Positions 6,579-24,178 of a stretch of DNA of 29,849 nucleotides are shown here, piece after piece (the first letter of the stretch is position 1; each line of letters begins with the position of its first letter). Below the pieces are notes generated by a model. That model was not told the origin of the DNA and did no database searches. It saw only the letters and a list, made by a program, of their open reading frames with translations. The stretch covers positions 1-29,849 of the IMG/VR virus record IMGVR_UViG_3300017527_000346. One strand, 5' to 3'. This DNA is from a virus. The position numbers were made by a program, and so were the translations under genes.

Positions 6579-6944
6579 ATGTCTGATACCTGGTGCGATA
6601 TGATAACCAGTTATTATAAACAACCAGTATTTAAAAGCCGCGGTTATTTAAAGTATATCCGGTTATTGGATTGCGCTGCATGTGGTAGCTCTCTTAATAT
6701 CGAAGCCCACCATGAAAGCTTTATGTGTTATAAAGCCCGCGGCGATAAAAGCTTAATCCCTGATAGTCATGCCATCCCTCTTTGTGTCCATTGCCACATC
6801 CCTAAGCGCCATCAGTGGGGATATAAAACGTTCTGGAAGTTCGTAAACCGCGACCCTAAGATATTGATAATTAACTATTTAACGGGATACCTACATGAAC
6901 ATAAAAGAACTTTCAATCGACAAATTAAATCCAGCCGCATATAA
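6579..6944 (+). CDS. HNH-like nuclease, DUF968-type
   Basis: I start this gene at ATG 6579 (121 residues) instead of the TTG at 6558 inside the hairpin stem. It carries YLKYIRLLDCAACGS (Cys32, Cys35), IEAHHES (His44-His45), DSHAIPLCVHCH (Asp62, Cys69, Cys72) and a basic tail. That is the zinc-supported HNH layout of DUF968-like phage proteins (a C..CG knuckle, a.HH, and then..PLC..CH). It probably cuts or binds branched or double-stranded DNA during phage recombination or replication. The last 50 bases overlap the ParB-like gene in another frame. Confidence 0.75.
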   Translation: MSDTWCDMITSYYKQPVFKSRGYLKYIRLLDCAACGSSLNIEAHHESFMCYKARGDKSLIPDSHAIPLCVHCHIPKRHQWGYKTFWKFVNRDPKILIINYLTGYLHEHKRTFNRQIKSSRI

Positions 6945-7524
6945 CCCTCGTAAAGATCTCACACCGGATGACCCTGAATATCAGGCGATAAAACGCTCAA
7001 TAACCGAGTTTGGGCTTGTGGACCCTGTTATATGGAACCAGGCCACCGGAAATATAGTAGGTGGCCACCAGCGATTTAAAGTTTTAAAAGAGATGGGCCA
7101 CAAAAAATGTATGGTCTCCGTGGTCGATCTAACCGAAAAAGCTGAAGCCGTTTTAAATGTTGTCCTAAACAAGGCATCCGGTGAGTGGGACTACCCAAAA
7201 TTAAAAGACTTGATAGCTGAAATTGATACCGGGGAGTTTGATATTGAGCTTACTGGGTTTAATCAGAACGAAATGGACCAATTATTCAGTTGGGGCACCT
7301 ATGGGGATCCGCAAGATGATTGGAAAGGAATGCCGGAATTTAATCAGGAGGATAAAAAATTTTATAGGGTATTAAAAGTATATCTTGAAACAGAACAGGA
7401 CTTTTTAGATTTTGCTGAAAAAATAAAGCAAGATATATCTAAAAAAGCAAGATATATTTACCATCCAAAGCAAATAATTGATTACACTTTAAGCAAAAAA
7501 TTACTAAATACTGATGAATCCTGA
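6895..7524 (+). CDS. ParB-like nuclease-domain protein
   Basis: The N-terminus has the ParB/sulfiredoxin fold signature: LSIDKLNPAAYNPRKDL with NPR at 17-19, then I..FGLVDPVIWN and the catalytic-type loop GGHQRF at 56-61. The start ATG overlaps the preceding gene by 50 bases but is required to include the conserved NPR strand. Residues from about 150 on (YRVLKVYLETEQDFLDFAEK) form the second domain often attached to phage ParB-like proteins and DNA methylases. The DNA becomes clearly more AT-rich from about 7340, at this domain junction. The stop overlaps the glycosyltransferase start by 11 bases, indicating a joint function in DNA modification (inference). Confidence 0.85.
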   Translation: MNIKELSIDKLNPAAYNPRKDLTPDDPEYQAIKRSITEFGLVDPVIWNQATGNIVGGHQRFKVLKEMGHKKCMVSVVDLTEKAEAVLNVVLNKASGEWDYPKLKDLIAEIDTGEFDIELTGFNQNEMDQLFSWGTYGDPQDDWKGMPEFNQEDKKFYRVLKVYLETEQDFLDFAEKIKQDISKKARYIYHPKQIIDYTLSKKLLNTDES

Positions 7525-8356
7525 ATACCCAATATTTATCCCAACCAAAGGACGATGGGAAAAGCCCCTAACAATAAATACCTTTAAAAAAATAGGAGTC
7601 CCATTCAAAATAGTAATTGAAGGTCAGGAATATAAACAGTATTCGGAAATAGTTGATCCGGAAAATATTATTGTATTACCACACCAAAACAAAGGTTTAG
7701 CAGTTACAAGAAATTGGATATGGAATTATGCAGAAAGTCTTAAAACAGAACGCTTTTGGACTTTTGATGATAATATTAAAAAATTTTGTAGATTAAATAA
7801 TAATGAAAAATGGACTTGTCTTTCTGGTACTTTCCTAAAAATAATCGAAGATTTTGTAGATAGATATAAGAATGTAGATATTGCAGGTATGGAATATGAT
7901 TATTTTGTTCCTAAAAAAGAACGCAGCAAAGCATATTCTATAAATAAACGTATTTATTCAAATATGTTAATTAATACTTTTGCAAAAGATCAAAAGGGCA
8001 ACCCGCTTAGAAATGAATGTTTTTATAATGATGATACTGATCTATGTATTCGAGTATTAAAAAATAAGCGATGTACCATTTTATTTTATATATTTTTGGC
8101 CAAAAAAAAACCTACTTTAAAAATGAAAGGCGGGATGACAGATTATTATGAAAAGACCAATAAACGATATGAATTTGCAAAAGAGTTGGTTGATAAACAT
8201 CCAGATATCTGTAAGATTGTGAAACGATATGGACGGTGGCACCACAGAGTAAATTATGAACCATTCGCTAATAACCGGCTAATATTAAAAGATGGTATAG
8301 ATATACCCAAAGGTACAAATAATTATGGAATGAATTTAAAAGTTGTTGACATTTAG
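7514..8356 (+). CDS. TET-associated / GREB1-type glycosyltransferase
   Basis: This 280-residue protein has the features of the TAGT (TET/JBP-associated) glycosyltransferase family: YPIFIPTKGRWEKPLT at 5-20, a strand VPFKIVIEGQE at 29-39, NKGLAVTRNWIWNYA at 59-73, and the metal- and sugar-binding FWTFDDN at 81-87, followed by a second acidic NDDTDLCIRVL and MKGGMTDYY. These enzymes are proposed, from comparative genomics, to glycosylate hydroxymethylated pyrimidines in phage DNA. No oxygenase or hydroxymethylase that would make the substrate is in the window. The gene is strikingly AT-rich compared with its neighbours, suggesting recent transfer with the ParB C-terminal part. The last residues overlap the -35 of a downstream promoter. 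Confidence 0.8.
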   Translation: MNPEYPIFIPTKGRWEKPLTINTFKKIGVPFKIVIEGQEYKQYSEIVDPENIIVLPHQNKGLAVTRNWIWNYAESLKTERFWTFDDNIKKFCRLNNNEKWTCLSGTFLKIIEDFVDRYKNVDIAGMEYDYFVPKKERSKAYSINKRIYSNMLINTFAKDQKGNPLRNECFYNDDTDLCIRVLKNKRCTILFYIFLAKKKPTLKMKGGMTDYYEKTNKRYEFAKELVDKHPDICKIVKRYGRWHHRVNYEPFANNRLILKDGIDIPKGTNNYGMNLKVVDI

Positions 8357-9323: not shown

Positions 9324-9629
9324 CTACTGTTCTATATCGATATAAAACTTTTCGCTTCTGAAATGCACTTGTTTTTCCATCCAACCAAATATTTTATACG
9401 ATAGAGACCCTTCCCACGCGTACAGTGTTCCATTTTTTGCAATCTGAGGGCAGGCATCTATCTCAGGAAGTTTGTAATAAACTACAATTTTTTTCTTGCC
9501 TTTACTCATGTCAATTCTTTTTGATATTTTATATATCTCTTCTTCGGCGTCTCCCCGGTATCTGATTAATTCGAGTATGACATCTGCATTCAGGTCTATT
9601 AGGGCTCGACGGTTAAAGCTGAGCTCCAT
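9324..9629 (-). CDS. Hypothetical protein, 101 aa
   Basis: This soluble-looking protein (MELSFNRRALIDLNADVILE, then a charged helix EEEIYKISKRIDMSKGKKK and beta strands IVVYYKLPEI) is not recognised. It has no signal peptide or membrane segment. The start follows GAGGAA and lies four bases after the stop of the preceding small membrane gene, so translation is coupled. About 39 bases separate it from the next gene. Confidence 0.7.
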   Translation of the reverse strand: MELSFNRRALIDLNADVILELIRYRGDAEEEIYKISKRIDMSKGKKKIVVYYKLPEIDACPQIAKNGTLYAWEGSLSYKIFGWMEKQVHFRSEKFYIDIEQ

Positions 9630-9633
9630 TTCC

Positions 9634-9771
9634 TCACCGGGCGCGAATCTCTTTTTTTTCTATTTTATATGGTAACTCCTGCGTGTACCAGGGGATTGTG
9701 TAACACACTATATGCGCCACCATTACCAATAAAACCAATCCCAGGAAAACGGTTGCCAGTTTATCGATCAT
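9634..9771 (-). CDS. 45-aa single-span membrane protein
   Basis: The ATG at 9771 overlaps the stop of the XhlA-like gene (ATGA). The frame begins MIDKLATVFLGLVLLVMVAH, a single N-terminal membrane segment, followed by a short polar, basic tail (ELPYKIEKKEIRAR). The position directly after the XhlA-like gene suggests a lysis-related partner such as a small holin or an i-spanin-like peptide, but it is too short for confident assignment. Confidence 0.6.
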   Translation of the reverse strand: MIDKLATVFLGLVLLVMVAHIVCYTIPWYTQELPYKIEKKEIRAR

Positions 9772-9968
9772 AACACCGCCTTTACTACCGCTGCTATAAC
9801 TCCTGCCAAAATTAGCATTACCATGCCATAAACTAGGCGCTGAATCGGTTGGAACTCAAACCGGGTGATATAGTTTTTATCGAGTTTTTGATCAATCGTA
9901 TCGATTTTTTTTATCAAATACTCCAGATGGATAGGCATATTATCTTCGGTAATCTCAATATCCAGCAT
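9768..9968 (-). CDS. XhlA-like coiled-coil/membrane protein
   Basis: The protein has 66 residues: an N-terminal acidic helix with heptad pattern (LEYLIKKIDTIDQKLDKNYI), the characteristic Y-I-T-R-x-E-F-x-P-I-x-R-L-V-Y-G stretch, and a C-terminal membrane helix (MVMLILAGVIAAVVKAVL). This architecture is that of XhlA-type haemolysin/holin-associated proteins in phage lysis cassettes. No endolysin is adjacent. It starts 10 bases after the beta-helix gene. Confidence 0.75.
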   Translation of the reverse strand: MLDIEITEDNMPIHLEYLIKKIDTIDQKLDKNYITRFEFQPIQRLVYGMVMLILAGVIAAVVKAVL

Positions 9969-9978
9969 ATAACTCGCC

Positions 9979-11619
9979 TCAGTGTATTATGATTATTGCT
10001 TGCCGTGGATAAAAATAATCAACTACGTGTTGGGTTGGATCGGTCTCCCGCAAACTTCCATTTGTGCCAAGGTTTAGGCTGCCGCTGTTATAAACATAGG
10101 CGTTCGCATTCGTCAACGCAACATATCGTGGATAATAATCGTCTGTATATACATCGTTGTCGTAAATTGCATTGTTGCGCGTAATAAAGCCTTCTGATGG
10201 CCCATAGCCTTTATCGTAGGTCTGGTTCCAAATACCTCCGCAAGTATTGTTTCGGACGATATTATAGGCTGTGGGTTCACTTGCAAAGGTATCCGTAATA
10301 TTGCCATAGGCGTTCACATAACCATCCAAGCTAGTGATTGATATTCCCATTCCCTCGGTCCAGTCTAATCTTGGCAGCACATTGTTTTCCACCAAATTCT
10401 CAAGAGCCATACCTTCCAGCACAATGGATGTGGCAGCAAACCCCTCGTCTCCAAATGTATTATTGTGTATCCAGTTGTGGCGAAAAGCCATGCCGATGAC
10501 AACCGTATCACCAACTCCCAGATTGGATATTTCTGATTTCAGCGTGAAGGTGTTTGCGGAATGAGACTCTATTAAGGCATGGTTGCCGTAAGTGTCGTCT
10601 CTATTTGGAATCGCTGTCATATAATAGCCGGAGTATAAATTGCCCACACCTGTCCACTCCCCCCCACTATTATTTAAGGTAACAGTCGTTCCACTTATTG
10701 ATGCAATTGTATCTCGCTCAACAATTGAGACGTTTGTGGTGATGGTTGGTGAACCTGAAACATCATATGAGATCCCTTCCTGACATCTTCTCTCGACATA
10801 ATTATACGAGACTTCATTATCTTCATAATTAGCATCAGGATCGGCGGTATAGTGGTCCCTTGAAGGATAGTCAACAGTAAAACGGTCGTCATCCCATGTA
10901 CGACTTCCAGAAAAATAGAACCCCACCCATCCACCCTTGACGTGGTTGTTATAGATTTTGTTCCTAGATCCCGCATTTATGACAAACCCCTTTCCCGTGG
11001 GTGCAGTAGGATTAATTTCTGGCTGACATTCGCTATGAGGAATTCCCTCAAACTGGTTATACCCTAACTCCGAATCGCAAACAAAGCCCCAATAAACACT
11101 TGCCCATCCATATTCTCGACTACAGTTAAAGTAGCTTCGCAAAACCTTGTTATACCGGACTTTTGACTCATGATTACCCGCAACGACAATGTGGCGGGCT
11201 GCGAAGTCAAAACGTCCATCTTGAATCGTGACATTATCCACCTCAACATAGATAGTGGAATGAAAAACCGGCTCAATGGAATGGCTCATCGTCTCCGGGT
11301 CATAATCACCGGGCTCATAAAGATCAATCGTGATGCCAGACACAGGGTGCAAATCATAACCACCGCCCCATGACCCTTTGACATACACGACATCGTCAGA
11401 GTCCAGCTTGCTTGCATTATCAGTGGCACTCCAGTTTCCAGACTCATTGAAATTACTGGCAGACATGGCGTCCCCGTCAGAATCCGGCAACACCTCCCAC
11501 GTTCCCGTGTCGCTAGCGTTTCCCCCCGCGCCTGTTGTCCTTAAATAATAATATTGTGTGGTCGCAAGCGCATTGCCCGCCCAAAACAAAATCAAAACTA
11601 TAATAAATAGTTTTTTCAT
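9979..11619 (-). CDS. Secreted right-handed beta-helix protein
   Basis: The 546-residue protein opens with a Sec-type signal peptide (MKKLFIIVLILFWAGNALA). The rest is Asn/Asp/Gly-rich with many N-N or N-x turns (NKIYNNHVKGG, NEVSYNYVERR, HNWIHNNTFGD, NIVRNNTCGG), as in pectate-lyase-like parallel beta-helices. These folds occur in phage tailspikes and depolymerases that bind or cut surface polysaccharide. No catalytic set can be named. The start overlaps the upstream stop (TGATG). The signal peptide is unusual for a virion protein assembled in the cytoplasm. Confidence 0.8.
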   Translation of the reverse strand: MKKLFIIVLILFWAGNALATTQYYYLRTTGAGGNASDTGTWEVLPDSDGDAMSASNFNESGNWSATDNASKLDSDDVVYVKGSWGGGYDLHPVSGITIDLYEPGDYDPETMSHSIEPVFHSTIYVEVDNVTIQDGRFDFAARHIVVAGNHESKVRYNKVLRSYFNCSREYGWASVYWGFVCDSELGYNQFEGIPHSECQPEINPTAPTGKGFVINAGSRNKIYNNHVKGGWVGFYFSGSRTWDDDRFTVDYPSRDHYTADPDANYEDNEVSYNYVERRCQEGISYDVSGSPTITTNVSIVERDTIASISGTTVTLNNSGGEWTGVGNLYSGYYMTAIPNRDDTYGNHALIESHSANTFTLKSEISNLGVGDTVVIGMAFRHNWIHNNTFGDEGFAATSIVLEGMALENLVENNVLPRLDWTEGMGISITSLDGYVNAYGNITDTFASEPTAYNIVRNNTCGGIWNQTYDKGYGPSEGFITRNNAIYDNDVYTDDYYPRYVALTNANAYVYNSGSLNLGTNGSLRETDPTQHVVDYFYPRQAIIIIH

Positions 11620-12941
11620 CAGCTTTCCGGTATGTAGTAATGTATTCTAAGATGTAACTGGGTGCAGGTTCCCTCCGGATCTGCCCCAAATGATAGGTAA
11701 ATTGTCTTGCCTGTTGCTACCACTCCGTTTCCGGCCATGTTGGTATTCGTGTCCTCAGAAGCATTGCCGGTTGTGGTATCCATTACGTCTATCAGCGTTT
11801 GACTCCCACCAGGGAAAGCACCCCCGGCCACCGCATCAGCGTATTTTAAATCCAAGTCCATCTCGACATCCGGATCGGCCACATTGCAATCGACATACCA
11901 TTTTGTTATGACTATACCATCGGGAAATCTATCAGAGTGCAAGTCCATTAACCAAACCTCGGCATCTGAATCATACCAGGTGCCAGGATCAAAAGTTGGC
12001 TGCATTATCTGGATTGAGGGTATAGCGATTTCCACAGTACCGTCATAATATGCGAGCTGCCGTTGCGTGCTATCAACCGCTATCTCTCCAGCAGCGTCAA
12101 CCGCCACATCACCGGCTGTATTGGGGACCTCAAGCGAAGTTGCCCCACCAAAATCATAGGCGTTGGCTCCCGCCGTCCCGCCGCCTACCTGTGATATGCT
12201 TGTTATCGTAATGTCATCGGCTACATCTGCATCTGGTACATCAGTCCCATCCGCACGGTAAACATATTTTGCGCCTATCGTGACCGCCGTTGGTATGTCC
12301 GTACCCCATGCCGGGTTAGTATCCGCGCCGCCACCTATAAGTAGTTGCGTTGTGAGGCCATCAGCAAGCACTTCAACGGCTCCCGTACCAGCACCAACTA
12401 ATAGTCCACCATCATTTAGTGTTCCAACACCAACTCCACCAGCGGGAACTCCAATCTGTGTGCCGGGAGAAGTATTAATAATAGCTATAATCTCATCATC
12501 GGTATCTACCAGGCCAGCCACGGCGTCGAGTTCACCCTGACTTGCTATGTCCGTTTCACCGTCTAGTAGATCCAACTCGGAAGAACCTAACGTTTCTGCA
12601 ATACCACCGAGGGCTGCCCATTGGTTGGCTGAAATAGTAGTTGCTCCAATGGTTTGTAATTGTTGAAATTCTACAAGAGTAACCGTAGCACCATCAAGTG
12701 GGGTATTTATTTCTAATGCAGTTGCCGTGATATCCGCTAAATCTGTAATTTCAATCAATGAGAATATATCGGCCAACGTTTCCATACCGCTTGTACCTGA
12801 GCCACCAGGCGTTGATACCGGTACCTCATCTGTTGCAACAGCCACCTTTTTACTCTGGTCCTCTAACGATACATCGGCACCATAAGTGGCGGATACTGTC
12901 GCAAATAATAAAACTATAATAATTTTTATTAATCGTTCCAT
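11619..12941 (-). CDS. Secreted fibre-like structural protein
   Basis: The 440-residue protein has an N-terminal signal peptide (MERLIKIIIVLLFATVSATYGA), then low-complexity, Ala/Gly/Thr/Asp-rich segments with repeated short strands (EITDLADITATALEINTPLD, GVGVGTLNDGGLLVGAG) that resemble fibrous tail or collar proteins, and a C-terminal beta-sandwich-like domain (from about residue 310) containing PDVEMDLDLKYADAV and HLRIHYYIP. The start ATG lies inside the last codons of the preceding gene (13-base overlap) with GGGGAGG as ribosome binding site. Function as receptor-binding fibre is an inference from neighbours. Confidence 0.75.
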   Translation of the reverse strand: MERLIKIIIVLLFATVSATYGADVSLEDQSKKVAVATDEVPVSTPGGSGTSGMETLADIFSLIEITDLADITATALEINTPLDGATVTLVEFQQLQTIGATTISANQWAALGGIAETLGSSELDLLDGETDIASQGELDAVAGLVDTDDEIIAIINTSPGTQIGVPAGGVGVGTLNDGGLLVGAGTGAVEVLADGLTTQLLIGGGADTNPAWGTDIPTAVTIGAKYVYRADGTDVPDADVADDITITSISQVGGGTAGANAYDFGGATSLEVPNTAGDVAVDAAGEIAVDSTQRQLAYYDGTVEIAIPSIQIMQPTFDPGTWYDSDAEVWLMDLHSDRFPDGIVITKWYVDCNVADPDVEMDLDLKYADAVAGGAFPGGSQTLIDVMDTTTGNASEDTNTNMAGNGVVATGKTIYLSFGADPEGTCTQLHLRIHYYIPES

Positions 12942-15900
12942 AGCATTACCTCCCCATTATTCCATAGCATTACATTATCATCGTTCCATAACATAGCAGT
13001 TTCAGCCGATAGCACGGGTGATTCAAAGCTTGAAATTAAATCACTCACCACGGGGTATATTAATGGCCGTATTAAACCGCTGGTATAGTTATAATTATTG
13101 GCATCCCAAACTAACAGCAACAAATCGGCATCTGATAATACTTCGTCATATACAATGATCCTTTTTATCAACTTTGGTAGTTCATCACCCCACAAAAGCC
13201 AGGTAACACCGTCAGGTGTGAATGCATCATTGAATCCAGTTGCACTAACTGAGAGGTCAAATACACCGTTCTTACTATTAGCAAGGTGCAAATATCCGTT
13301 CTCCCCCTCTTCGCTGTCATGGCGTAAAACTGTAATCATTTGGTCATTACGAGACCAGTTAAGGCCGGAATGTAACACAGAATAGAGCCCATCTGATGCG
13401 ACAATTCTCCCTTCAACCGAAGAAAAATATAAAGGGGTGTAAGGTCCACTGGCCCCTTTTATTGTAAAAAAGCCCCTTGAAGATGTGTCCACCGCATCAT
13501 AATCTTGCAGCGGCACCCATTCAATGATTGTAGTTCCTCTATTCGCTGGTGCGCCTGTCCCGTAAACGCTCTTGATTAGTTCTGATTGGGTGAACTGTAC
13601 GCCATAGGTTCCATCTGCGGCCATGCTGGTCATGGCCACCGGGTTTCCGTTGGATGGAATATAGGGTAGCAGGTAGGGCGTTGGAGTTATGTTTGCGCCG
13701 TAGATAGCCACAGAATCCGTGTCCGCAACAATCCTTATTCCCACAACCGGGTCAGTCTCGGTTCCAGTAATGTCAAATCTTTCCCAGGAAGTTGATAGCG
13801 TTTTAGTTGTCCACGAGCCACCATTGTCCTCTGTCAAATCGACGTTGCCGGTCCCTCCCAATCTTTTCATCCAGACCGAAAAGGTATAATCCGAACCGTC
13901 AAGTGTTTCAGAAAGTGTGTATTTTATTGTCGCGTTAGCTGCATTAGCAAGCAAATAAGTTGCCGAATTATTTTCATTGTCCGGCCCATCTTGAGTCAGG
14001 AAGTCCCACATTTGGTAAGTAGTCCACTGACTAAAATCCTCACTATAAGGCAAAAGATTAACCCCGGCACCGCTGATAATAGCTCCAACCCCGCTATCAC
14101 CCACCTGGCCGATCACATCTTGAGCAGGGATAGATGTATCGTTGACGAAATCTGAGGGCTCTAATAGGGCAAAGTCTGGAATGCGCTTTATAGTGATATC
14201 GCCGATGTGGACTATTTCAGAACCTGACATGTTATCAAATTCAATATGATCTCCAGTTGCATGCGTAGCCCTGAATACAAGCTCATAGGGTGCTGTGGAA
14301 GTTGTCAGGGTAACTTCAGCAAGCACAGTGTCATCAGCATTGTTCATTATTACGAGTTTGGGAGCATCCCCGTCAAGTGTCTCAAAATAGGCATCCGCAA
14401 CATTGACCATGTAATAAACGTTGACTATTGAATCGTCTGTGAAATCCGTTGCATCTGAGATATCGAGATAAGCGCCCCGATCGTCATCCACATATGAGAT
14501 TTGCATATTGCCGTTTGTTTCATCAATCTCCATTTTATTCGTGCCGTAGGGTACCCCACTTGTCTGCACTGGCCGAATGCTGACATCGTCGTAATATAGG
14601 AGGTCGCCGTCTGCAGGGTTGCCACCAAATCCTATATCTATATTGCCTACAATGTCAGTAGCAAAGTAGTTATATAGAACAACCTCAGTCCAAGTATCTC
14701 CAGAAAGGGTTTCGGTCACAGCGCCAGGAATATCATCTGAAAAAGCACTTGGCTTAATCCTAACACTCTTTAAATTATTCGCAGCGGGCACTGCTATTTT
14801 TACCGATATTCTGAATAAAGTATTTGTAGAAAGCCCATCTATTTCTGTTGTTGACAACCTTCCATAAGCATAAGTACAGGGATCGGTAGTCTCATCAACC
14901 GTAATCAAACCTTGCTTATGATCACCAGGTTCAACTCCTCCATAACCGAGATCATTGCTATCATAAGTAAGGGTTGAATCCGTAGAGTCATCATGCAGCG
15001 TCCAATTCCCAATATTCCCATCTTCAAATGTCCGATCATTATCATCGTCAATAGCATCGCTATCGTCCCCACCGCCGTCTCCTGCACTATACGGCCAGTC
15101 GTAGGTGCCGAGGTGTGGGGCGGTTATTTCTTTTATAATAAAATTGTCTAAATATACCCCTCCATCATCGCTTCCATTTAATTCTCGCGCATTAATAAGT
15201 ATGTTTATGCCATCATAAATAAACTCTCGTGTGTAGGTAGTAAACGATGTGTCTGTGCTTGTTAGGGTTACAAGTGGATTGTCCGAATAATAATTTGTGT
15301 CACCAAAAGCAATTACCCAATCGCCGCCCGTGCCCACATGTCGGGCATCGATTGCCATCTGGTATACAGTACCCTCAACGAGTCCTAACCCGCTAATATC
15401 CTCCCAAAGCCGAGCCCCCGCAGCAGGAGAACCGTTAGCATTAAGATGGAAAGCATATGACCCGGTAGATTTAACAGCAGATTGCGACTCGTAAATGTCT
15501 AAGCTCCCCGCCACGGTCCAACCGGTAGTAGCATCGGCCTCATTACCGCCGCTGTCTCCAACTGCATTGGCTACGTCGTATAGCTCACTCCCCAAACTCT
15601 CCTGATCAAACAGATCGCTTCCGATAACGTTCCCGGATGGAAGCTTTTCGAGCATGATGTTGCGAATGTGGGTTTCTGGATTGTCGGGATCGTCTTGGCC
15701 GATGAAGATGCGATCTTCGCCATCTGAAGGATTAATAAAAACATCATCTGTACTATCACTGGCGGTGAATGCAACGGAACATCTATACCAGCCATCACTA
15801 AGGGTTTCAGGGGACCCTTCTGGAATAACAAATCCGCTGTTTGTTCCTAAACCGCTTCCCGCCAAATTAAAAAACGCTGATGGCTTTGTCCCTGTTGTGT

Positions 15901-16318
15901 TTATTATTATCCTTATACTGTTAACCACTCCCTGTTTAAAATCAGCCGAGAATATATATGTTTCTCCACCAATTACTTTGTTCTGAGCCTTCAGAATATG
16001 AGAATTATTAGTAGTATCAGCAACAATAGCCTGTGCCGTGCTTTTCCCAATCCTTGTACGCGCCCAAAACCCATCAGTAATATCATTCTGCGCACTCGTA
16101 TCAATCAACTGATCCCGATCACCCCAAAACGTTTGCAGAATGCCTTGTGGATTCGTTGCGGTTCTGGCTGATACAGCACTGGTTTGGCCGGAAGTCATAC
16201 CACCTTTTTTATCAACAAGAGTATGATTCTGGTTGATATTGATGTCTACAACCTTCCCGGCGAAACAGGGGGACCCAAGAACACAGAACGCTAAACATAT
16301 GTATAGTAGTTTTTTCAT
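12929..16318 (-). CDS. Large secreted multi-domain adhesin (CBM/LamG-like modules)
   Basis: I start the gene at ATG 16318 (1129 residues), giving a signal peptide MKKLLYICLAFCVLGSPCFA; the longer frame from 16375 would bury it. The body is a string of beta-sandwich modules. Several contain the carbohydrate-binding pattern of a W-T..G substitution with TYIFSADFK, DGWYRCSVAF and YTFSVWMKR segments (CBM-4/9-like), and one near the C-terminus resembles a LamG/concanavalin domain (YLHLANSKNGVFD and KLIKRIIVYDEVLSDADL). The protein ends in three MLWN repeats. It probably binds glycans. The gene begins one base after the Fn3 gene stop. Domain names are by resemblance only. Confidence 0.78.
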   Translation of the reverse strand: MKKLLYICLAFCVLGSPCFAGKVVDININQNHTLVDKKGGMTSGQTSAVSARTATNPQGILQTFWGDRDQLIDTSAQNDITDGFWARTRIGKSTAQAIVADTTNNSHILKAQNKVIGGETYIFSADFKQGVVNSIRIIINTTGTKPSAFFNLAGSGLGTNSGFVIPEGSPETLSDGWYRCSVAFTASDSTDDVFINPSDGEDRIFIGQDDPDNPETHIRNIMLEKLPSGNVIGSDLFDQESLGSELYDVANAVGDSGGNEADATTGWTVAGSLDIYESQSAVKSTGSYAFHLNANGSPAAGARLWEDISGLGLVEGTVYQMAIDARHVGTGGDWVIAFGDTNYYSDNPLVTLTSTDTSFTTYTREFIYDGINILINARELNGSDDGGVYLDNFIIKEITAPHLGTYDWPYSAGDGGGDDSDAIDDDNDRTFEDGNIGNWTLHDDSTDSTLTYDSNDLGYGGVEPGDHKQGLITVDETTDPCTYAYGRLSTTEIDGLSTNTLFRISVKIAVPAANNLKSVRIKPSAFSDDIPGAVTETLSGDTWTEVVLYNYFATDIVGNIDIGFGGNPADGDLLYYDDVSIRPVQTSGVPYGTNKMEIDETNGNMQISYVDDDRGAYLDISDATDFTDDSIVNVYYMVNVADAYFETLDGDAPKLVIMNNADDTVLAEVTLTTSTAPYELVFRATHATGDHIEFDNMSGSEIVHIGDITIKRIPDFALLEPSDFVNDTSIPAQDVIGQVGDSGVGAIISGAGVNLLPYSEDFSQWTTYQMWDFLTQDGPDNENNSATYLLANAANATIKYTLSETLDGSDYTFSVWMKRLGGTGNVDLTEDNGGSWTTKTLSTSWERFDITGTETDPVVGIRIVADTDSVAIYGANITPTPYLLPYIPSNGNPVAMTSMAADGTYGVQFTQSELIKSVYGTGAPANRGTTIIEWVPLQDYDAVDTSSRGFFTIKGASGPYTPLYFSSVEGRIVASDGLYSVLHSGLNWSRNDQMITVLRHDSEEGENGYLHLANSKNGVFDLSVSATGFNDAFTPDGVTWLLWGDELPKLIKRIIVYDEVLSDADLLLLVWDANNYNYTSGLIRPLIYPVVSDLISSFESPVLSAETAMLWNDDNVMLWNNGEVMLWND

Positions 16319-16319
16319 C

Positions 16320-16637
16320 TTATTCCACCACATGAATTTGCGATACTGGAGATACAGGCACAGTGGTATAAACACCTGAACTAAATATAGATTCTAGCCC
16401 AGAAGCGTTATAGGCTTTCGCACGAAAGAAATACACGACCCCCGAATTAAGCTCTGTAACTGTGTATTGTGTTACATTACCGGCATCCACAACCTGATTT
16501 AGATTATCAAATTCCAGGCCATAATAAATATTATATCCCGTTGCGTCATCCGATGGGTCCCACTTCAATGTCACATTCCCGGCATGTACGGTGATCGTCA
16601 TGCACAAAATAAGTGCTATTAAAAATATTTTTTTCAT
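16320..16637 (-). CDS. Secreted single fibronectin type III domain protein
   Basis: After a signal peptide (MKKIFLIALILCMTITVHA) the 105-residue protein contains one Fn3-like domain: VTLKWDPSDDATGYNIYYGL, then TQYTVTELNSGVVYFFRAKA and YNASGLES. These are the B-C strand tryptophan and tyrosine positions of Fn3. A hydrophobic tail follows. Fn3 domains decorate phage tails and help attach to bacterial surfaces. The stop is one base away from the next start, so the two proteins are made together. Confidence 0.85.
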   Translation of the reverse strand: MKKIFLIALILCMTITVHAGNVTLKWDPSDDATGYNIYYGLEFDNLNQVVDAGNVTQYTVTELNSGVVYFFRAKAYNASGLESIFSSGVYTTVPVSPVSQIHVVE

Positions 16638-16648
16638 TTATGCCCCAA

Positions 16649-17209
16649 TCAATCAACCCCAAAAAACGTCAAGCCAGGGTTAGTAGTTTTTGCCTTTGAT
16701 GGTTTACCAGCAGCCTTCCAATCCTTCAGATTTTTACCACCAACCCAATCTCCCTTATCATCTTTCCACCGCACTCTTAGGGTCTCTTTTGCAACAGTGC
16801 CAGCGGGAAGTGATGCATGGGCCTCATTTTGTTCGTACGAATTTACTGTAAGGTCCAGCCATGCCGCTGCGGTTGTGGTATTGCTGCCACCGGCGTATTC
16901 CGGATAGTCTTGAGCCTCGTAATACAGCGATTCATCCCTTGTGATACCGTACAGACGAAAAGTTTCATCTTTGCCAATACCTTCTGAAGATAAGATACGG
17001 ACATCCGTCACTTGATACCCCTCCGGACGTTCACCGCCCGGCTCCATAAAATATCTAACTGGATCGGTTCCGAGCGGCCATCCAGGATAGGTAATTTTAT
17101 CGACAACAAAAGAACTTTTCTTGGCGATAAAAAACAAATGGTAGGTTTTAGCATGTGCGATACCTACCAGACAAAAAATAAATAGAATCGCTATGATTGC
17201 TTTTTTCAT
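16649..17209 (-). CDS. Secreted hypothetical protein, 186 aa
   Basis: A signal peptide MKKAIIAILFIFCLVGIAHA precedes a mixed alpha/beta protein with many aromatic residues. It contains a basic, tryptophan-containing region (VRWKDDKGDWVGGKNLKDWK). I do not recognise a family. Its start overlaps the previous stop by four bases (ATGA), and 11 bases follow before the Fn3 gene. It belongs to the run of six signal-peptide genes. Confidence 0.75.
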   Translation of the reverse strand: MKKAIIAILFIFCLVGIAHAKTYHLFFIAKKSSFVVDKITYPGWPLGTDPVRYFMEPGGERPEGYQVTDVRILSSEGIGKDETFRLYGITRDESLYYEAQDYPEYAGGSNTTTAAAWLDLTVNSYEQNEAHASLPAGTVAKETLRVRWKDDKGDWVGGKNLKDWKAAGKPSKAKTTNPGLTFFGVD

Positions 17210-17556
17210 TTGAATAACCTCATATCACAAGTTCCGCTTGTATAATCACCATTTTTCATGCCTATCCGATAATAAACATTTTTACTTGGCTCATCTACAA
17301 CGGCCTCGGTATTTGCTGTCCACTCTTCAATATCAAGCCAGTTAGTCCCATCGAAACTACGTTGCAGTGTAACCGTACCCACCCATGCATTCGATATTGA
17401 CAGATCAAAACGCCCACCCATCTTAGCCGTGTCTGATGTGAATGAGTCATCACCTGGATTAGACGAGATTTGCAGCGTTAGGCTTGCCCCTGCATCGACC
17501 ATTTGTGGGAATAAAAACAATAAACTGATTAACGATAGCACAATACATTTTTTCAT
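17206..17556 (-). CDS. Secreted beta-sandwich tail-associated protein
   Basis: The 116-residue protein begins with a signal peptide (MKKCIVLSLISLLFLFPQMVDA). The mature part has GGRFDLSISNAWVGTVTLQR followed by SFDGTNWLDIEEW, a Y-Y-R-I-G-M-K-N-G-D-Y-T-S-G motif and a final strand with MRLF. A similar pattern (..SISG.WVGTVTLQRSFD.G..W.....YYR.G.K.GDYTSG) is familiar from small phage structural proteins, normally without a signal peptide. The SD AAAGGAGG precedes the start. The protein may decorate the tail or be exported. Confidence 0.78.
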   Translation of the reverse strand: MKKCIVLSLISLLFLFPQMVDAGASLTLQISSNPGDDSFTSDTAKMGGRFDLSISNAWVGTVTLQRSFDGTNWLDIEEWTANTEAVVDEPSKNVYYRIGMKNGDYTSGTCDMRLFK

Positions 17557-17579: not shown

Positions 17580-18029
17580 TTATTCTGCCGTGACAATTAA
17601 TTCTTTTATGTACACCGGATTTGTTTGCGTACTATATAGCTGTATTTCACCTTCGTAAAGTGTGCCGGGTGTCAGACCTGATATGTCATGAACATTGCAG
17701 TCTACCGCTGCATAGGTGTCACCCTCTCGCTCACCATAGCTGGCCGAATAGCTACCATTGACGCCTATCCTTGCCCTGCATAGCTGAGTTGTAGCTGCAT
17801 AACATTTCAGCATTCCGTACAGCCGGACATCATTATTTCCCTCCGGGCAAACAAAGGGGAACGTTGCAACTGTGGTCCAAGCAATAAGGCTTATAGTCAA
17901 TTCATTACTCTGAGAAAAAAAAGAGCCTCCCTGCAATGCCACAATGACGTTATCCCTCAATTGCTGCATCTGCGCCGATGTCAATTTTGTCCCATAACCG
18001 AAAGACCCACTTAGATCAGTCCAGCCCAT
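17580..18029 (-). CDS. Tail-associated beta-rich protein, 149 aa
   Basis: The start MGWTDLSGSFGYGTKLTSAQ followed by MQQLRDNVIVALQGG is a short helix pattern seen at the beginning of phage fibre or appendage proteins (W.D....GYG..LTS.QM..L.DN). The rest is a beta-sandwich with repeated Thr/Val strands. No signal peptide is present, in contrast to the next six genes. The SD AAGGAGATTTTG lies in the end of the overlapping upstream gene. Confidence 0.7.
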   Translation of the reverse strand: MGWTDLSGSFGYGTKLTSAQMQQLRDNVIVALQGGSFFSQSNELTISLIAWTTVATFPFVCPEGNNDVRLYGMLKCYAATTQLCRARIGVNGSYSASYGEREGDTYAAVDCNVHDISGLTPGTLYEGEIQLYSTQTNPVYIKELIVTAE

Positions 18030-18210
18030 CGTTCAAAATCTCCTTGACTGTCTTGAGATGAACAGGGCATAGATGCGCGGCATCCTCCCCCGTTTCATCA
18101 TTGTGTATTCCTACGATATGACCCCATCCTGAAAACCCCCGGTTAGGACCTGTTTCAACATGCCAGTTTTGGCAATCCTTAACACTGCAATATATGGTTT
18201 GTAGTATCAT
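18016..18210 (-). CDS. Small Cys/His protein, 64 aa
   Basis: The frame starts at ATG 18210, overlapping the previous stop (ATGA), and carries YCSVKDCQNWH, GFSGWGHIVG and HLCPVHLK. The C-x4-C and CxxH pairs indicate a small metal-binding fold. Similar short proteins with a GW core and LCP.H ending occur among phage tail genes. It overlaps the next gene by 14 bases. Confidence 0.7.
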   Translation of the reverse strand: MILQTIYCSVKDCQNWHVETGPNRGFSGWGHIVGIHNDETGEDAAHLCPVHLKTVKEILNDGLD

Positions 18211-19388
18211 AGCAATAATTTATCCCCATCTAAAAAGTCCACATCAAGGTAAAAAGCATCCCCGGCATTTGCTTCATTCATGCCGTAGTTGACCCGGAAC
18301 TTTTCAAGGTCAATCTTTATCTCGTCAAATCGCCATCCGGTGCCTGAATTGATATTATAAAACTCATCGACGAAACGGACGGTTTCGCCGAGTTGTCTAT
18401 GCAGGCCGGTTATAGTGGCACTTAGCTTAAACCGTTTTGGTGGATATTGGTTTGCAAGGGCTTTTCTCTGCGCCATGTTTTGACATGATGCTGAGTCTAC
18501 ATACCAAATATTCTTACTATTCCATATCGTTTCATGTAGGCCAAAGGTATTGACGGAAGTCGTCTGTTGCTGTGCTACATTAATGGCCCAATAGTCGGAC
18601 TCCTCCGAATAGTCACCATACACCCAAGCTTTATTGACCAGGTTCATTCCATCAACGGTTATCTCAACGTCGAGGATCTGATCGGCGATAAGTGTAAAAT
18701 CAAGTGAATTTGGCTCTGTGTATCGCCGGAAATATAGCTTACCGTCGCCTTCCGTCCAAATGGCCGAGTCAGTCATAACCCCAAGGTCATCAAGCGCCTT
18801 TGCTACCTTAACACCTTTGTATCTCGCAGCCATCTCAACGTTGTCTGTTGAAAAGTTTTCTGCCCACACCTCAAATGATTCCCAATTAATATGAGGGTTC
18901 GCTGCGCTTTGGGTATTGTCTAACTGCCCATAACAAGTGCATATTGTCCACGCAATATCGGATGGTATCTGATCGCTTATTTCAATTGGTGCCTCAGAGG
19001 TTCCTATTTTCTGCTCGGTCAGACTCCATAACCTATCCCTTAAATGTAGTTGACAAGATGATTTCTTGGGATAGCGCACTTCCTTGATATCACCCGAAAA
19101 AATAGATATTGACTCATAATCTGAATCAGGATGAGTGAACCCTATTTCAATTGTGCAAGTATTCGGCAAGGTCCATAAACGTTCGTGAAACTGGTTAAAT
19201 AATCCGTCATCATTGGCAAGGGTTATAGTCGTTTTACTCGCCCGTATCCGGTTTGCAAGTCGGCTGAACCTCGGCCACTTAACTACCCGCTCGGAATAAT
19301 TGCTTGACCCAATGGTAAACCTGCGCTCAGGTGATGAAGCCTTTAGTTTTAGCTGATCGATATACCAGGATGATACGTCATAGGCCAT
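18207..19388 (-). CDS. Putative tail hub/tip protein
   Basis: The protein has 393 residues. The N-terminal half has strands and turns typical of tail-hub barrels (ISIFSGDIKEVRYPKKSSCQ, LHLRDRLWSL), and the middle part has KVAKALDDLGVM and FTLIADQILDVEI; the C-terminal part ends in a long strand-rich region (FKLSATITGLHRQLGETVRF). It lies after the tape measure and the distal-tail-like proteins in the transcription order, where the hub or tip protein is expected. The assignment is from position and general architecture. The start overlaps the preceding stop (TGATG). Confidence 0.6.
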   Translation of the reverse strand: MAYDVSSWYIDQLKLKASSPERRFTIGSSNYSERVVKWPRFSRLANRIRASKTTITLANDDGLFNQFHERLWTLPNTCTIEIGFTHPDSDYESISIFSGDIKEVRYPKKSSCQLHLRDRLWSLTEQKIGTSEAPIEISDQIPSDIAWTICTCYGQLDNTQSAANPHINWESFEVWAENFSTDNVEMAARYKGVKVAKALDDLGVMTDSAIWTEGDGKLYFRRYTEPNSLDFTLIADQILDVEITVDGMNLVNKAWVYGDYSEESDYWAINVAQQQTTSVNTFGLHETIWNSKNIWYVDSASCQNMAQRKALANQYPPKRFKLSATITGLHRQLGETVRFVDEFYNINSGTGWRFDEIKIDLEKFRVNYGMNEANAGDAFYLDVDFLDGDKLLL

Positions 19389-21668: not shown

Positions 21669-22034
21669 TTAATATGTGCTCAGATCCAACTTGCCGGAAA
21701 ATTTATCAATATACGGTTTGGTAAATTTTGAAAATGGTGTATCTTTGTTAATTATCATGACACTGGTTATCTCACTTACGCTGTTTGATGAAATATCTAA
21801 CTGGCATAGCTGCTGATTCTCCCACCAGCTATTGACCACACTCGCCACTGATGAGGCCGTAAACTCAAATTTCATCGAAACTATTCTAAAATGCCCATGA
21901 TCATATTGAAACAGACTCCCGGTCTTTGCTCGACTCCGATCAAAGATTTTTTCCTTTTGGTCTTTAAGATCCCAATTCGGCACCAGGGTCACTGAGTTAC
22001 TAGACGAGTCCCAAAGCTTATAGGTTAGGCTCAT
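21669..22034 (-). CDS. Distal-tail-like protein, 121 aa
   Basis: I start at ATG 22034, which overlaps the tape-measure stop (ATGA); an in-frame ATG further upstream lies inside the tape-measure gene. The protein is beta-rich: SVTLVPNWDLKDQKEK, SRAKTGSLFQYDHG, MKFEFTASSVASVVNSWW, FSKFTKPYIDKFSGKLDLS. These positions align with the last 105 residues of the propeller protein encoded next (PNW, RAKTG, FEFTA, V..WW, KPY, GK..LS), so they are paralogues. Located right after the tape measure, it is the best candidate for the distal tail protein that starts the tail tip. Confidence 0.7.
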   Translation of the reverse strand: MSLTYKLWDSSSNSVTLVPNWDLKDQKEKIFDRSRAKTGSLFQYDHGHFRIVSMKFEFTASSVASVVNSWWENQQLCQLDISSNSVSEITSVMIINKDTPFSKFTKPYIDKFSGKLDLSTY

Positions 22035-24178
22035 GCTTCGATCCCCCAATTTGCAAGCCGCCTTAATGATGGAATAACACTTTCCTCGACCATGATGTCC
22101 CAATCAGTATCAGACATATCCTCTACTGGTTTCGGCGATGTAATATTGACGGTTACTGCTCCAATGCCACCACCTCCGCCGCCCTGTCCCATAAATTCGG
22201 TCAGGTCTTTATTCTGGCCAGGACTCAACACACGCTCATCTTTATCAAGGAGGTAGGTTTGTTCCGCTGGTACATTGGTTAGCCCACCATGAGCCGCTGG
22301 TGGTTTCTGAGACGCAATGGCCGCCACCTGTGCCATACCAGCGGCCAGGGCTGTCGCAGCCAGGATAGGCCCTAATGGGTAAGGGTAAGCCCCAAGGTTT
22401 GTGGTAAATGCCTTTATAGCGTTAATGGTGGCCTCTGCAATGGAAAGGCCCTGCATCATTTTAAAACCTTTTTTACCAAATGCTGCGCTGATAGTTTGCA
22501 TATCCCCAAAAAATTGTGTCTGTCCCTTTTTTGCCTTCTCTCGTTTCGCATCCCCCGAATCTGACTCGGCCTGGTCAAGCTCTGTCACCTTCTGGTTGTA
22601 TAACTCCGTAATCATGGCCTTTGCGTCATTGAACTCTTGGAACTTTTCAAGCTGCTCGGCATACCACTCTTCTAATTGCTCACGCCTGGTCTGTGTTGCT
22701 TCTGCATGCATGATTTGCAGGTTTTCATAGGCCATCATCAGGTCGGAATTTTCACGGTCTAATATTTCTTGCTTTTTCGCGCTGTATACAAACTCAGTTT
22801 GCGCCATCGCCTCTTTGTTGCCGATGAACATTTCTTGCTGTTGTGAGTACCACTGATTTAATCTCTCAAGCTCAGTAAAGCGATACTGGTTATAGGATTC
22901 AGCCAGTTCAGCCAGCGCCGAATCATGTGCCGATGTATCCGGCGGTTTTATGCTGCCGCCCTCGGTATCTTCAACCGGACCCATACCCGGCATTGACAAA
23001 GAAGGCATACCGGACGCGGCTTCGCCACCCGCCGCCTGGATCTCAGCGATCGCGTCTTTTACTCCGGATACAAAGTTTTCAACCTTACCAATGGCCAGGC
23101 CCTCATCGGCGATATTGTTTAAATTCCGCCATGCAGTTTCCCCCATTTGCTCAAATGAACTAACAGCCTCTTGATTTTTACCGATAAAGCTTTCGACACT
23201 TTTTAATGGCTCATCAAATATTCCCTTGAAATTAAGGGCCTCCATAACAGAGGCATACTTTTTTATGATCCAGTTAAAGCCTTCAAGCAATAACCGGCTA
23301 AACTCCGCAAACGCTATTTTAAGAATTTCCCAAGTCATCTTTAAGCCGCGCCATGCATCAACCATTAGGGCCACACTATAAGCGGTTACTTCAGCAATCT
23401 TGGCGAGGACTTTTATGGTTGTAACCCCGAACCCGATTATCTTGTCTCTATTTCCAACAGAAAATTCGGTCCAACGGTTGATCATGGCTGTTATGATCGG
23501 CATAAATTGTTCTGCTATATAATTTTTAAGCCCTTTGAAAGATCCAGTTAGCCGGGTTAACGAATCGTTGAACTCAGCCGCATTCTTAGCCGCCGTCGAA
23601 GATACCACAAGGCCAAATTTTTCGGCCTCTTCCTTCATAGCCCGTAAGCCTTCAGTACCACCGGATAATGTTTGTAACAAGCCTACGCCTTCAGTATCCC
23701 AAAACTGCATGGCAAGCCGGACTTTCTCGCCCTGATCACTTACACCCGATAATGCCTCAGCTATTTTTTCAAATTGCTGATCAGGGCTTAACCCGGCGAT
23801 AGATTCAATACTGATACCTAAATCATCCAGCGCACCTACCGCGACCCCTACCCCTTTATTTGCCTCAGCGATACGCCTGGTCATACGCTGAAAACCGACA
23901 TTCAAGCTTTTTGTTGTTATGCCGGACAACTCGGCGACATGATGATATTTGCTCAAAGCCTCGGATGTGATACCTATCCTACCGGCAAATTTTCCGATAT
24001 TATCATAAGCCGCGGCCGTACTTTTTGTCATTGCAAATATAGCTGTCCCAAGCCCTGCAATTGCAGCACCGCTGGCAATTGCAGCCGTCTTTAAACTCGG
24101 CAAAGAACCCTTTAACTTTCCGAACGTTTTTGAAAATTCGTCTTTTGCCCCGATGATTACTGTTAATTTCTCGGCCAT
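22031..24178 (-). CDS. Tail tape measure protein
   Basis: The protein has 715 residues. The N-terminus (MAEKLTVIIGAKDEFSKTFG) and the hydrophobic segment around 32-50 (AIASGAAIAGLGTAIFAMTK), then helical repeats (ITSEALSKYHHVAELSG, SPDQQFEKIAEALSGV) are typical of tape measures. A second hydrophobic zone (LTKIAEVTAYSVALMV-like) lies near 265. The central part is a long coiled coil rich in Gln/Glu (LEEWYAEQLEKFQEFNDAK). The C-terminus has PYPLGPILAATALAAGMAQV and AHGGLTNVPAEQTYLLDKDE, the common ending of siphophage tape measures. Its length sets the tail length, so a moderate siphovirus tail is expected. It starts inside the TAATG that ends the chaperone frame. Confidence 0.92.
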   Translation of the reverse strand: MAEKLTVIIGAKDEFSKTFGKLKGSLPSLKTAAIASGAAIAGLGTAIFAMTKSTAAAYDNIGKFAGRIGITSEALSKYHHVAELSGITTKSLNVGFQRMTRRIAEANKGVGVAVGALDDLGISIESIAGLSPDQQFEKIAEALSGVSDQGEKVRLAMQFWDTEGVGLLQTLSGGTEGLRAMKEEAEKFGLVVSSTAAKNAAEFNDSLTRLTGSFKGLKNYIAEQFMPIITAMINRWTEFSVGNRDKIIGFGVTTIKVLAKIAEVTAYSVALMVDAWRGLKMTWEILKIAFAEFSRLLLEGFNWIIKKYASVMEALNFKGIFDEPLKSVESFIGKNQEAVSSFEQMGETAWRNLNNIADEGLAIGKVENFVSGVKDAIAEIQAAGGEAASGMPSLSMPGMGPVEDTEGGSIKPPDTSAHDSALAELAESYNQYRFTELERLNQWYSQQQEMFIGNKEAMAQTEFVYSAKKQEILDRENSDLMMAYENLQIMHAEATQTRREQLEEWYAEQLEKFQEFNDAKAMITELYNQKVTELDQAESDSGDAKREKAKKGQTQFFGDMQTISAAFGKKGFKMMQGLSIAEATINAIKAFTTNLGAYPYPLGPILAATALAAGMAQVAAIASQKPPAAHGGLTNVPAEQTYLLDKDERVLSPGQNKDLTEFMGQGGGGGGIGAVTVNITSPKPVEDMSDTDWDIMVEESVIPSLRRLANWGIEA

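Follow-up and report, generated by a model that had tools for sequence, protein, structure and literature searches.

Six adjacent genes with predicted Sec signal peptides at the end of a late tail operon in an uncultured phage

In the textbook account tailed phages are assembled in the cytoplasm, and protein export is linked with filamentous phages, with lysis proteins and with the surface proteins of lysogens; we know of no assembly route for exported appendages of tailed phages. PblB of streptococcal phages is, by its description, comparable to the proteins reported here, being a tail-fibre-type protein with carbohydrate-binding activity that arrives at the surface of the bacterium. However, it is encoded by a single gene in phages of a Gram-positive host, and in S. 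mitis it is released in connection with lytic permeabilisation and is not known to use Sec. A putative signal peptide has been predicted for pneumococcal PblB (PMC4508584). Lom of lambda carries a Sec-type signal and its gene lies between the tail genes J and stf, but it is a lone outer-membrane protein, neither a fibre nor part of a run. Lys44 of fOg44, a signal-bearing endolysin, is a late protein of a tailed phage that is exported by Sec (PMC6116005), although as a lysis enzyme it is neither an appendage nor a surface-binding protein. In the literature searched, with most subscription papers outside its scope, we found no description of signal-peptide runs on tail fibres or other virion proteins.

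The locus lies in a 29,849-nt stretch of DNA from an uncultured tailed phage (hereafter the window), where six adjacent minus-strand genes, g1 to g6, occupy positions 9979-17556 and close the late tail operon (Table 1). The operon order is tape measure, distal, hub, g0, the six signal-bearing genes and lysis-type genes, and the run thus sits at the tail-operon end after hub-type genes, a location of fibre and receptor-binding genes. The coordinates, strand and order of the six genes in the initial annotation proved right. Since the gene junctions are tight (a 4-nt overlap for g1/g2, a 1-nt gap for g3/g4, and overlaps of 13 nt for g4/g5 and 1 nt for g5/g6) and the ribosome site AAAGGAGG precedes g1, the start codons of the run are supported. 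For g4, a GTG at 16375 was rejected as the start in favour of the downstream ATG at 16318.

Table 1. Features of the signal-bearing run and its surroundings in the window; a slash marks the predicted cleavage site.
Feature	Coordinates	Strand	Description
g1, 116 aa	17206..17556	-	Predicted signal peptide MKKCIVLSLISLLFLFPQMVDA/G and small beta-sandwich domain
g2, 186 aa	16649..17209	-	Predicted signal peptide MKKAIIAILFIFCLVGIAHA/K and mature domain without recognised fold
g3, 105 aa	16320..16637	-	Predicted signal peptide MKKIFLIALILCMTITVHA/G and single fibronectin type III domain
g4, 1129 aa	12929..16318	-	Predicted signal peptide MKKLLYICLAFCVLGSPCFA/G and long multi-domain beta protein
g5, 440 aa	11619..12941	-	Predicted signal peptide MERLIKIIIVLLFATVSATYG/A and fibre-like repeats (GGLLVGAGTGAVE)
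g6, 546 aa	9979..11619	-	Predicted signal peptide MKKLFIIVLILFWAGNALA/T and probable right-handed beta-helix
g0, last tail gene without signal peptide	17580..18029	-	Upstream border of the run; signal-peptide score -3.8
Downstream border	9324..9978	-	Small membrane/holin-type reading frames and a TM-anchored protein; lysis-type slot
Tail hub-type protein	18207..19388	-	79% identical in the relative; query for gathering the phage family
Tape measure protein	22031..24178	-	Same operon; tblastn match to annotated tape-measure proteins of Vibrio phages and others

Signal peptides were assessed with a custom scorer (not SignalP) based on the n-, h- and c-regions and the residues at -3 and -1, calibrated on 250 kb of E. 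coli K-12 with labels of SPI-exported proteins assigned by the analyst. All of the labelled proteins (27/27) scored at least 4.8, as did few other E. coli proteins, lipoproteins, Tat substrates and membrane proteins apart. The six proteins of the run scored 6.6 (g1), 9.8 (g2), 8.8 (g3), 7.3 (g4, from the ATG at 16318), 8.8 (g5) and 10.1 (g6), and none of the remaining 23 of the 29 window genes scored above 1. The classical Sec/SPI pattern of a short positive n-region, an uncharged hydrophobic h-region and small residues at -3/-1, with neither a lipobox nor a later transmembrane segment, was found in 6/6, which bears out the earlier claim of Sec signals without lipobox on all six. In each c-region, position -1 is Ala or Gly and position -3 is occupied by a small or permitted residue; g5 has an alternative cleavage site, ATVSA/T. 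We rejected an internal start giving a signal-free form: g1 has M19 and some of the alphaproteobacterial fibres described below have a later start, but such starts are not conserved. Cysteine counts did not separate exported from cytoplasmic proteins.

Among control phages, only lom and Rz scored in lambda, only Rz in HK97 and no gene in T7, while in Mu its two lysis genes and one marginal head gene did. The tape measure protein has 80 relatives; in the 78 other phages of this set, 16 of 756 genes upstream and 7 of 365 downstream scored (about 2%) and no two scoring genes were adjacent, so that signal runs were rejected as a general feature of phage tails. A comparable background has been published for two Polaribacter phages, with signal peptides in 1/82 and 0/86 genes (PMC4615864). 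With a per-gene rate of 2.1%, six consecutive positives among 29 genes have a probability of about 2e-9, and the adjacency alone, given six positives, one of 5e-5.

The mature parts were less readily assigned. The fibronectin type III label of the initial annotation held for g3, which matches Pfam fn3 (1.2e-7) and the Fn3 part of PHROG_31, central tail fibre J (7e-8), and has a homologue of 27% identity in the relative described below. Its CBM label corresponds to a weak match in g4, where Pfam CBM_4_9 at 0.046 fell below the cut-off and no phage match was found; the C-terminal part of g4 carries MLWND repeats. Neither g2 nor g6 matched any family, and g5 had no Pfam, PHROG or phage match, although 67 aa of it are 39% identical to an 849-aa signal-bearing fibre of the relative. 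The single-sequence AF2 model of g6 reached a pLDDT of 30, and a beta-helix was seen only in its slot equivalents in the relative, bh1 and bh2 (Pfam Beta_helix, 4e-14 and 6e-12). The fibre, CBM and beta-helix labels for g4-g6 are therefore tentative. For g1, the AF2 model has a pLDDT of about 83-89 over residues 51-100; in BFVD it matches uncharacterised proteins of phages (best 4e-7), in the PDB only weak fold matches were obtained, and its sequence profile gave chance-level matches only against solved structures. Other phages encode g1 homologues that lack a signal peptide; their genes lie in head/portal or fibre regions, for example between the portal gene and scaffold-type genes or next to a T7-like fibre.

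A search for the run in other phages had been called for. The hub-type protein found 21 relatives in IMG/VR, one of which, the near-complete 42-kb IMGVR_UViG_3300017527_000425, also carries signals on six genes of this slot, which differ in order and content. Its g1 orthologue is 79% identical in the mature part (74/94), whereas the two signal peptides cannot be aligned and both score well; the g1 signal thus diverged almost fully and yet appears to have been kept by selection. The start of its beta-helix gene was reassigned to a GTG at 1970, which has a ribosome site, and its fibre domain recurs without a signal in an annotated tail fibre of Roseobacter phage CRP-345 (129 aa, 41%). In a third family member (L034), g0 is followed by two signal-like genes, after which the contig ends. 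In seven others (L029, L109, L112, L113, L116, L119 and L120) lysis-type genes follow g0 with no such run between them, and the run is therefore dispensable for building such a tail. An orthologue of g0, with a conserved N terminus and a variable C terminus, is present in almost every family member whose sequence reaches that far; the downstream border also has equivalents in the relative (L004 5435-5740 and 5737-6189, 39% identity). Within the family, then, the run is a variable slot between g0 and the lysis cassette, with fast turnover of gene content between the window phage and its relative. At the nucleotide level the run matched none of 50,697 phages, tblastn with the hub, g4, g5, g6 and the relative's bh1 gave no match, and two scans of genome contigs with the tail proteins found no prophage.

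A similar organization was observed in an independent lineage, alphaproteobacterial siphophages, the isolate ppBdUSDA122-1 included, where two or three consecutive signal-bearing fibres directly follow a lambda-J-like protein. In ppBdUSDA122-1 this protein belongs to phrog_31 (7e-137) and both of the next two genes carry signals, the second matching Pfam Collar (Phage Tail Collar, 2.9e-10) and a PHROG tail fibre (2.8e-28); no signal-free fibre is annotated near the pair. The signal is clear in 13 of 18 related loci and borderline in 4, and it is concentrated in the fibre slot (21/36 vs 4/51 upstream, p=4e-7). As in the window, consecutive Sec-signal genes with fibre-like mature parts end the tail operon and, as between the window phage and its relative, signals diverge while mature parts stay conserved. 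Unlike the window, however, the set adjoins a lambda-J-like protein and one fibre has a collar domain, and we detected no homology except a g1-type domain in one phage (L017). The annotation of these genes does not go beyond 'hypothetical protein' and 'tail fiber protein'. Pelagiphage-type phages (HTVC033P gp46/gp45, MedDCM-OCT-S28-C10 and L124) likewise have a pair of neighbouring late genes for beta proteins with signals, and one of the two products is annotated as carbohydrate binding. In L124 the pair follows the hub and g0-type genes; the sequences are unrelated to those of the window, and in some of these phages the pair lies near the terminase. No description of this pair as exported proteins was found in the literature searched.

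Export of the six proteins is strongly supported by predicted signals that are conserved and yet divergent in sequence, and in our view some phages probably export appendages that then work, or are joined to the particle, outside the cytoplasm. We tentatively favour, at a little under an even chance, the view that the run encodes late-made appendage and surface-binding proteins that leave the cytoplasm through Sec and, once outside, function or become attached to the tail. The six last genes of the late tail operon would encode appendage-type and surface-binding proteins, which the host Sec pathway would export with removal of a classical signal peptide. These would gather in the periplasm, or at the outer surface, while heads and tails form in the cytoplasm, and would meet the virions at cell lysis. 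The fibre-like and small beta-sandwich members could then attach to the tail tip, late and outside the cytoplasm, while the beta-helix and Fn3/CBM-like members would bind or cut surface polysaccharide. Cleavage, periplasmic location and virion attachment are steps that we infer. Of the three options first raised for the run, export has stood; addition to the virion outside the cytoplasm is possible for the window phage by analogy, and gains weight because alphaproteobacterial phages, one of them isolated, carry such signals on true tail fibres; a role on the lysogen surface has been weakened. We found no virion or periplasm proteomics for the window phage or any relative.

A credible alternative, somewhat less likely in our view, is that the proteins leave the cytoplasm by Sec without ever becoming part of the virion, and work late in infection either unattached or at the surface of the host cell. 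There they could bind or cleave polysaccharide, release progeny from matrix or debris, or mask receptors and so prevent superinfection. The accessory nature of the run, absent from seven family members, is consistent with this, as are the signal-free state of the conserved tail gene g0 and the precedent of lambda lom, a known signal-bearing outer-membrane protein in a similar slot. Moreover, the beta-helix proteins of the relative match Beta_helix, DUF5123 and Disaggr_assoc, and not strongly phage tail spikes, and judging from these matches they may be free secreted proteins. However, g1 and the fibre have domains in common with signal-free phage structural-type proteins, and the alphaproteobacterial signals sit on collar-domain tail fibres.

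It seems improbable that the signals are remnants of captured host surface-protein genes that no longer matter. The bacterial-type Pfam matches of the beta-helix proteins and the rapid turnover of the slot would fit such an origin, but none of the six signals is damaged in either phage, certain domains are of phage type and occur without a signal elsewhere, and well-scoring, dissimilar signals on g1 proteins with such similar mature parts are expected under selection rather than decay. Lysogenic conversion by proteins altering the lysogen surface, like lambda lom or bor, is very unlikely: exported beta proteins at the tail/lysis border do recall the position of lom, but the genes form one late-operon block with the tail genes, with no promoter of their own evident, and a six-gene row is unlike a moron. 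Furthermore, the Phage_integrase and Resolvase profiles, whose positive controls matched, found nothing in the window, itself a fragment, or in the 42-kb relative, which makes a lysogen role unlikely. Nor do we give much credence to the N-terminal helices being uncleaved inner-membrane anchors of tethered periplasmic factors, for instance in lysis, since, although there are long hydrophobic segments among the six and TM proteins are encoded next to them downstream, all six c-regions resemble cleaved E. coli signals at -3/-1 and Fn3 and fibre-repeat domains are ill-suited to spanins or SAR endolysins.

Returning to the preferred reading of exported appendages, it could reflect a recurrent strategy of tailed phages, in which tail fibres and other appendages pass through Sec into the periplasm and are joined to completed virions outside the cytoplasm, at lysis or later, with separate origins in the siphophages of the window type and of alphaproteobacteria, and perhaps in pelagiphages; we advance this generalization with considerable reserve. 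For annotation, signal-bearing phage genes on short contigs could pass for host secreted proteins. The cultured Bradyrhizobium phage ppBdUSDA122-1 makes the question directly testable under both the virion and the free-acting reading. If signal-bearing fibres do not belong to virions, there are phages with entire sets of late, exported proteins whose site of action is the surface of dying or neighbouring cells. If they do, one class of tailed phages completes its particles outside the cytoplasm, and disulfide chemistry and periplasmic chaperones would be open to the receptor-binding parts.

The initial annotation assigned Sec signal peptides to six consecutive tail-region genes, g1-g6 (window 9979-17556, minus strand), and this was confirmed. 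Our home-made scorer for signal-peptidase-I (SPI) signals rates the n-, h- and c-regions together with residue preferences at -3/-1. It was calibrated on E. coli K-12 (five pieces of 50 kb each), where 27/27 proteins that, from their gene names, we take to be SPI-exported score at least 4.8. g1-g6 score 6.6 to 10.1, against none above 1 among the remaining 23 window genes, and stop/start overlaps at the gene junctions back their start codons, as does a strong ribosome site in the case of g1. In lambda, T7, HK97 and Mu, everything the scorer picked was lom, Rz or a lysis gene, apart from one marginal head gene; at a background of 2.1%, a six-gene run would arise by chance with a probability of about 2e-9.

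The window (29,849 bases) is an entire IMG/VR virus record and a genome fragment. Its minus-strand late operon runs from a giant glycosyltransferase-methyltransferase protein through the head-tail genes, major tail protein, tape measure and distal tail proteins to a hub-type protein, a 64-aa zinc-ribbon-like protein, the signal-free gene g0, g1-g6 and small lysis-type membrane proteins, while early genes (ATPase, exonuclease VIII type, RecT, ParB-like, HNH) occupy the opposite end on the plus strand. The giant protein keeps its position between capsid and head-tail genes across the examined family members, and virion or exported proteins may be its glycosylation targets. In locus L031 (L numbers denote IMG/VR or phage loci), a signal-bearing 122-aa Fn3-like protein directly follows it.

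Features of the window and of related loci
Feature	Locus and position	Strand	Remarks
Repeat gene	window 700-1449	+	about 25 short repeats of type VRLGDDVSLGDY
ParB-like gene adjoining a phrog_842 beta-glucosyl-HMC-alpha-glucosyltransferase-type gene	window 6895-8356	+
TM anchor plus beta domain gene	window 9324-9770; L004 5737-6189	- (window)	two frames in window; one ORF in L004
Zinc-ribbon-like protein	window 18016-18210	-	between hub and g0; 60-75 aa in family
Second distal tail protein	window 19388-21667; L002 12351-14027	- (window)
Giant glycosyltransferase - methyltransferase - glycosyltransferase protein	window 27176-29824	-	between capsid gene and head-tail genes
Its counterparts	L002 4070-6988; L029 313-3276; L030 3914-6814; L031 1957-4815
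Mom-like DNA modification gene	L004 15254-15688		relative
Fibre genes with signals, two or three in a row	L144 4646-7692; L153 5923-10088; L146 5851-9731; L128 9923-14004		after J-like protein
Pelagiphage-type signal pair	L129 11318-13596; L130 9418-11386; L124 3543-5514

The same run was sought in other phages and found in the closest relative (IMGVR_UViG_3300017527_000425; 42,111 bp, 99-bp end overlap; L002 and L004 are handles on its DNA), which has six signal genes in the same slot, with partly different content. After g0 come an Fn3-slot protein, a g1 orthologue, an 84-aa protein, an 849-aa fibre and two beta-helix proteins, bh1 and bh2, 6/6 with a signal at the start. For bh1 we took the start as GTG 1970, preceded by a GGAGGAG site, the ATG start of the ORF list being acidic; a lipobox in bh2, where a crude pattern matched a cysteine at roughly residue 30, was judged a false flag. 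The mature parts of the g1 pair are identical at 74/94 residues and their signal sequences are unalignable. Detectable partners are limited to g1, g3 and a short part of g5, so the slot content changes and the signal rule stays.

The second distal tail proteins of the two phages have similar ends and different central inserts, that of the window being a Lactonase-type beta-propeller (Pfam 6e-7). The phrog_842-type gene of the window and the Mom-like gene of the relative suggest that the phage DNA is hypermodified. The frame split at window 9324-9770 lies near a run of eight A and could be a sequencing error, slippage or a real break. The repeat protein is probably a small beta-solenoid; an antisense ORF (241-1140) was rejected as an artefact of its repeats.

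The run is rare. Among 80 tape-measure relatives from IMG/VR, all passed through one gene caller, signal-scoring genes made up 16/756 upstream and 11/374 downstream; four of the latter were the relative's own run, and no other locus had two adjacent. Locus L034 has two signal-like genes directly after g0, the first narrowly failing the TM filter, and then ends. The 21 hub relatives share a plan of hub, zinc ribbon (kept throughout the family), g0, variable slot and lysis genes. Seven of them (L029, L109, L112, L113, L116, L119, L120) have no signal genes in the slot, L110 has a signal-free 691-aa protein there, L124 has two signal genes farther down, and upstream of the hub the count is 0/165. 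Given this rarity, the seven slots empty of signal genes and the upstream zero, a subclade carries the signal run as an accessory module.

One g1 homologue, in L017, has a signal, and following it up revealed a second lineage. In the isolated Bradyrhizobium phage ppBdUSDA122-1, both genes after the lambda-J-like protein (phrog_31, 7e-137) start with a signal, and the latter of the two has hits to PHROG tail fibre families and to the Phage Tail Collar domain. In 18 distinct IMG/VR loci the signal of the first fibre is clear in 13, borderline in 4 and absent in L155, and two or three consecutive signal genes occur in L144, L146, L147, L148, L151, L153 and L154. L144, L153, L146 and L128 are alphaproteobacterial siphophages, the isolated Bradyrhizobium phage included. 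Across alphaproteobacterial loci, signal genes number 21/36 in the fibre slot versus 4/51 upstream (p=4e-7), a p-value that is optimistic because near-duplicates or shared ancestry affect some of the loci. The homologous fibre stretches of EBPR siphovirus 2 and of Rhizobium phages lack the signal. Pelagiphage-type phages and L124 provide a third case, with paired signal proteins of about 200 aa and 446-534 aa, carbohydrate binding being annotated in two records; in HTVC033P an anchor-like 107-aa protein comes next.

The mature domains also occur without signals. In Mesorhizobium phage Lo5R7ANS a signal-free g1 homologue adjoins a T7-like fibre gene; in Rhizobium phage RHph_I20 one adjoins capsid-assembly genes, and in L010 one lies between portal-type and scaffold-type genes. 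The predicted g1 model is a beta-sandwich, with small uncharacterised phage proteins as its best structural matches, and a section of the relative's fibre matches a Roseobacter phage tail fibre without signal. The two beta-helix proteins of the relative have hits to Beta_helix, DUF5123 and Disaggr_assoc, which is compatible with their capture from secreted bacterial proteins. Isolated precedents for signal-bearing phage proteins are lambda Lom, endolysins (PMC6116005) and, with a predicted signal, pneumococcal PblB (PMC4508584). Our literature search, with most subscription papers outside its reach, turned up no account of consecutive fibre-type genes with signals.

Signals stand at all six starts, are kept despite sequence turnover and are confined to the appendage slot, and they occur on a collar-domain fibre elsewhere. 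We infer that the g1-g6 products would be exported by Sec, lose their signals to SPI cleavage and pool in the periplasm until lysis. From there the proteins could follow either of two courses, which we rate nearly alike. The fibre-like members may attach to virions at lysis; we give this slightly less than an even chance, and in its favour the signal is borne by true fibres and the annotation of ppBdUSDA122-1 shows no additional fibre. Somewhat less probably, the exported proteins may act free or at the surface, as the dispensability of the module in relatives and the secreted look of the beta-helix members would suggest. Of the three readings in the initial annotation, virion addition is retained, and a surface role in a lysogen is unlikely, as no integrase or resolvase was found in the window or the 42-kb relative. 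As for attachment to virions, finished tailspikes or fibres have long been known to join tailed-phage particles in vitro in P22 and T4, so late addition of the appendages would be chemically reasonable.
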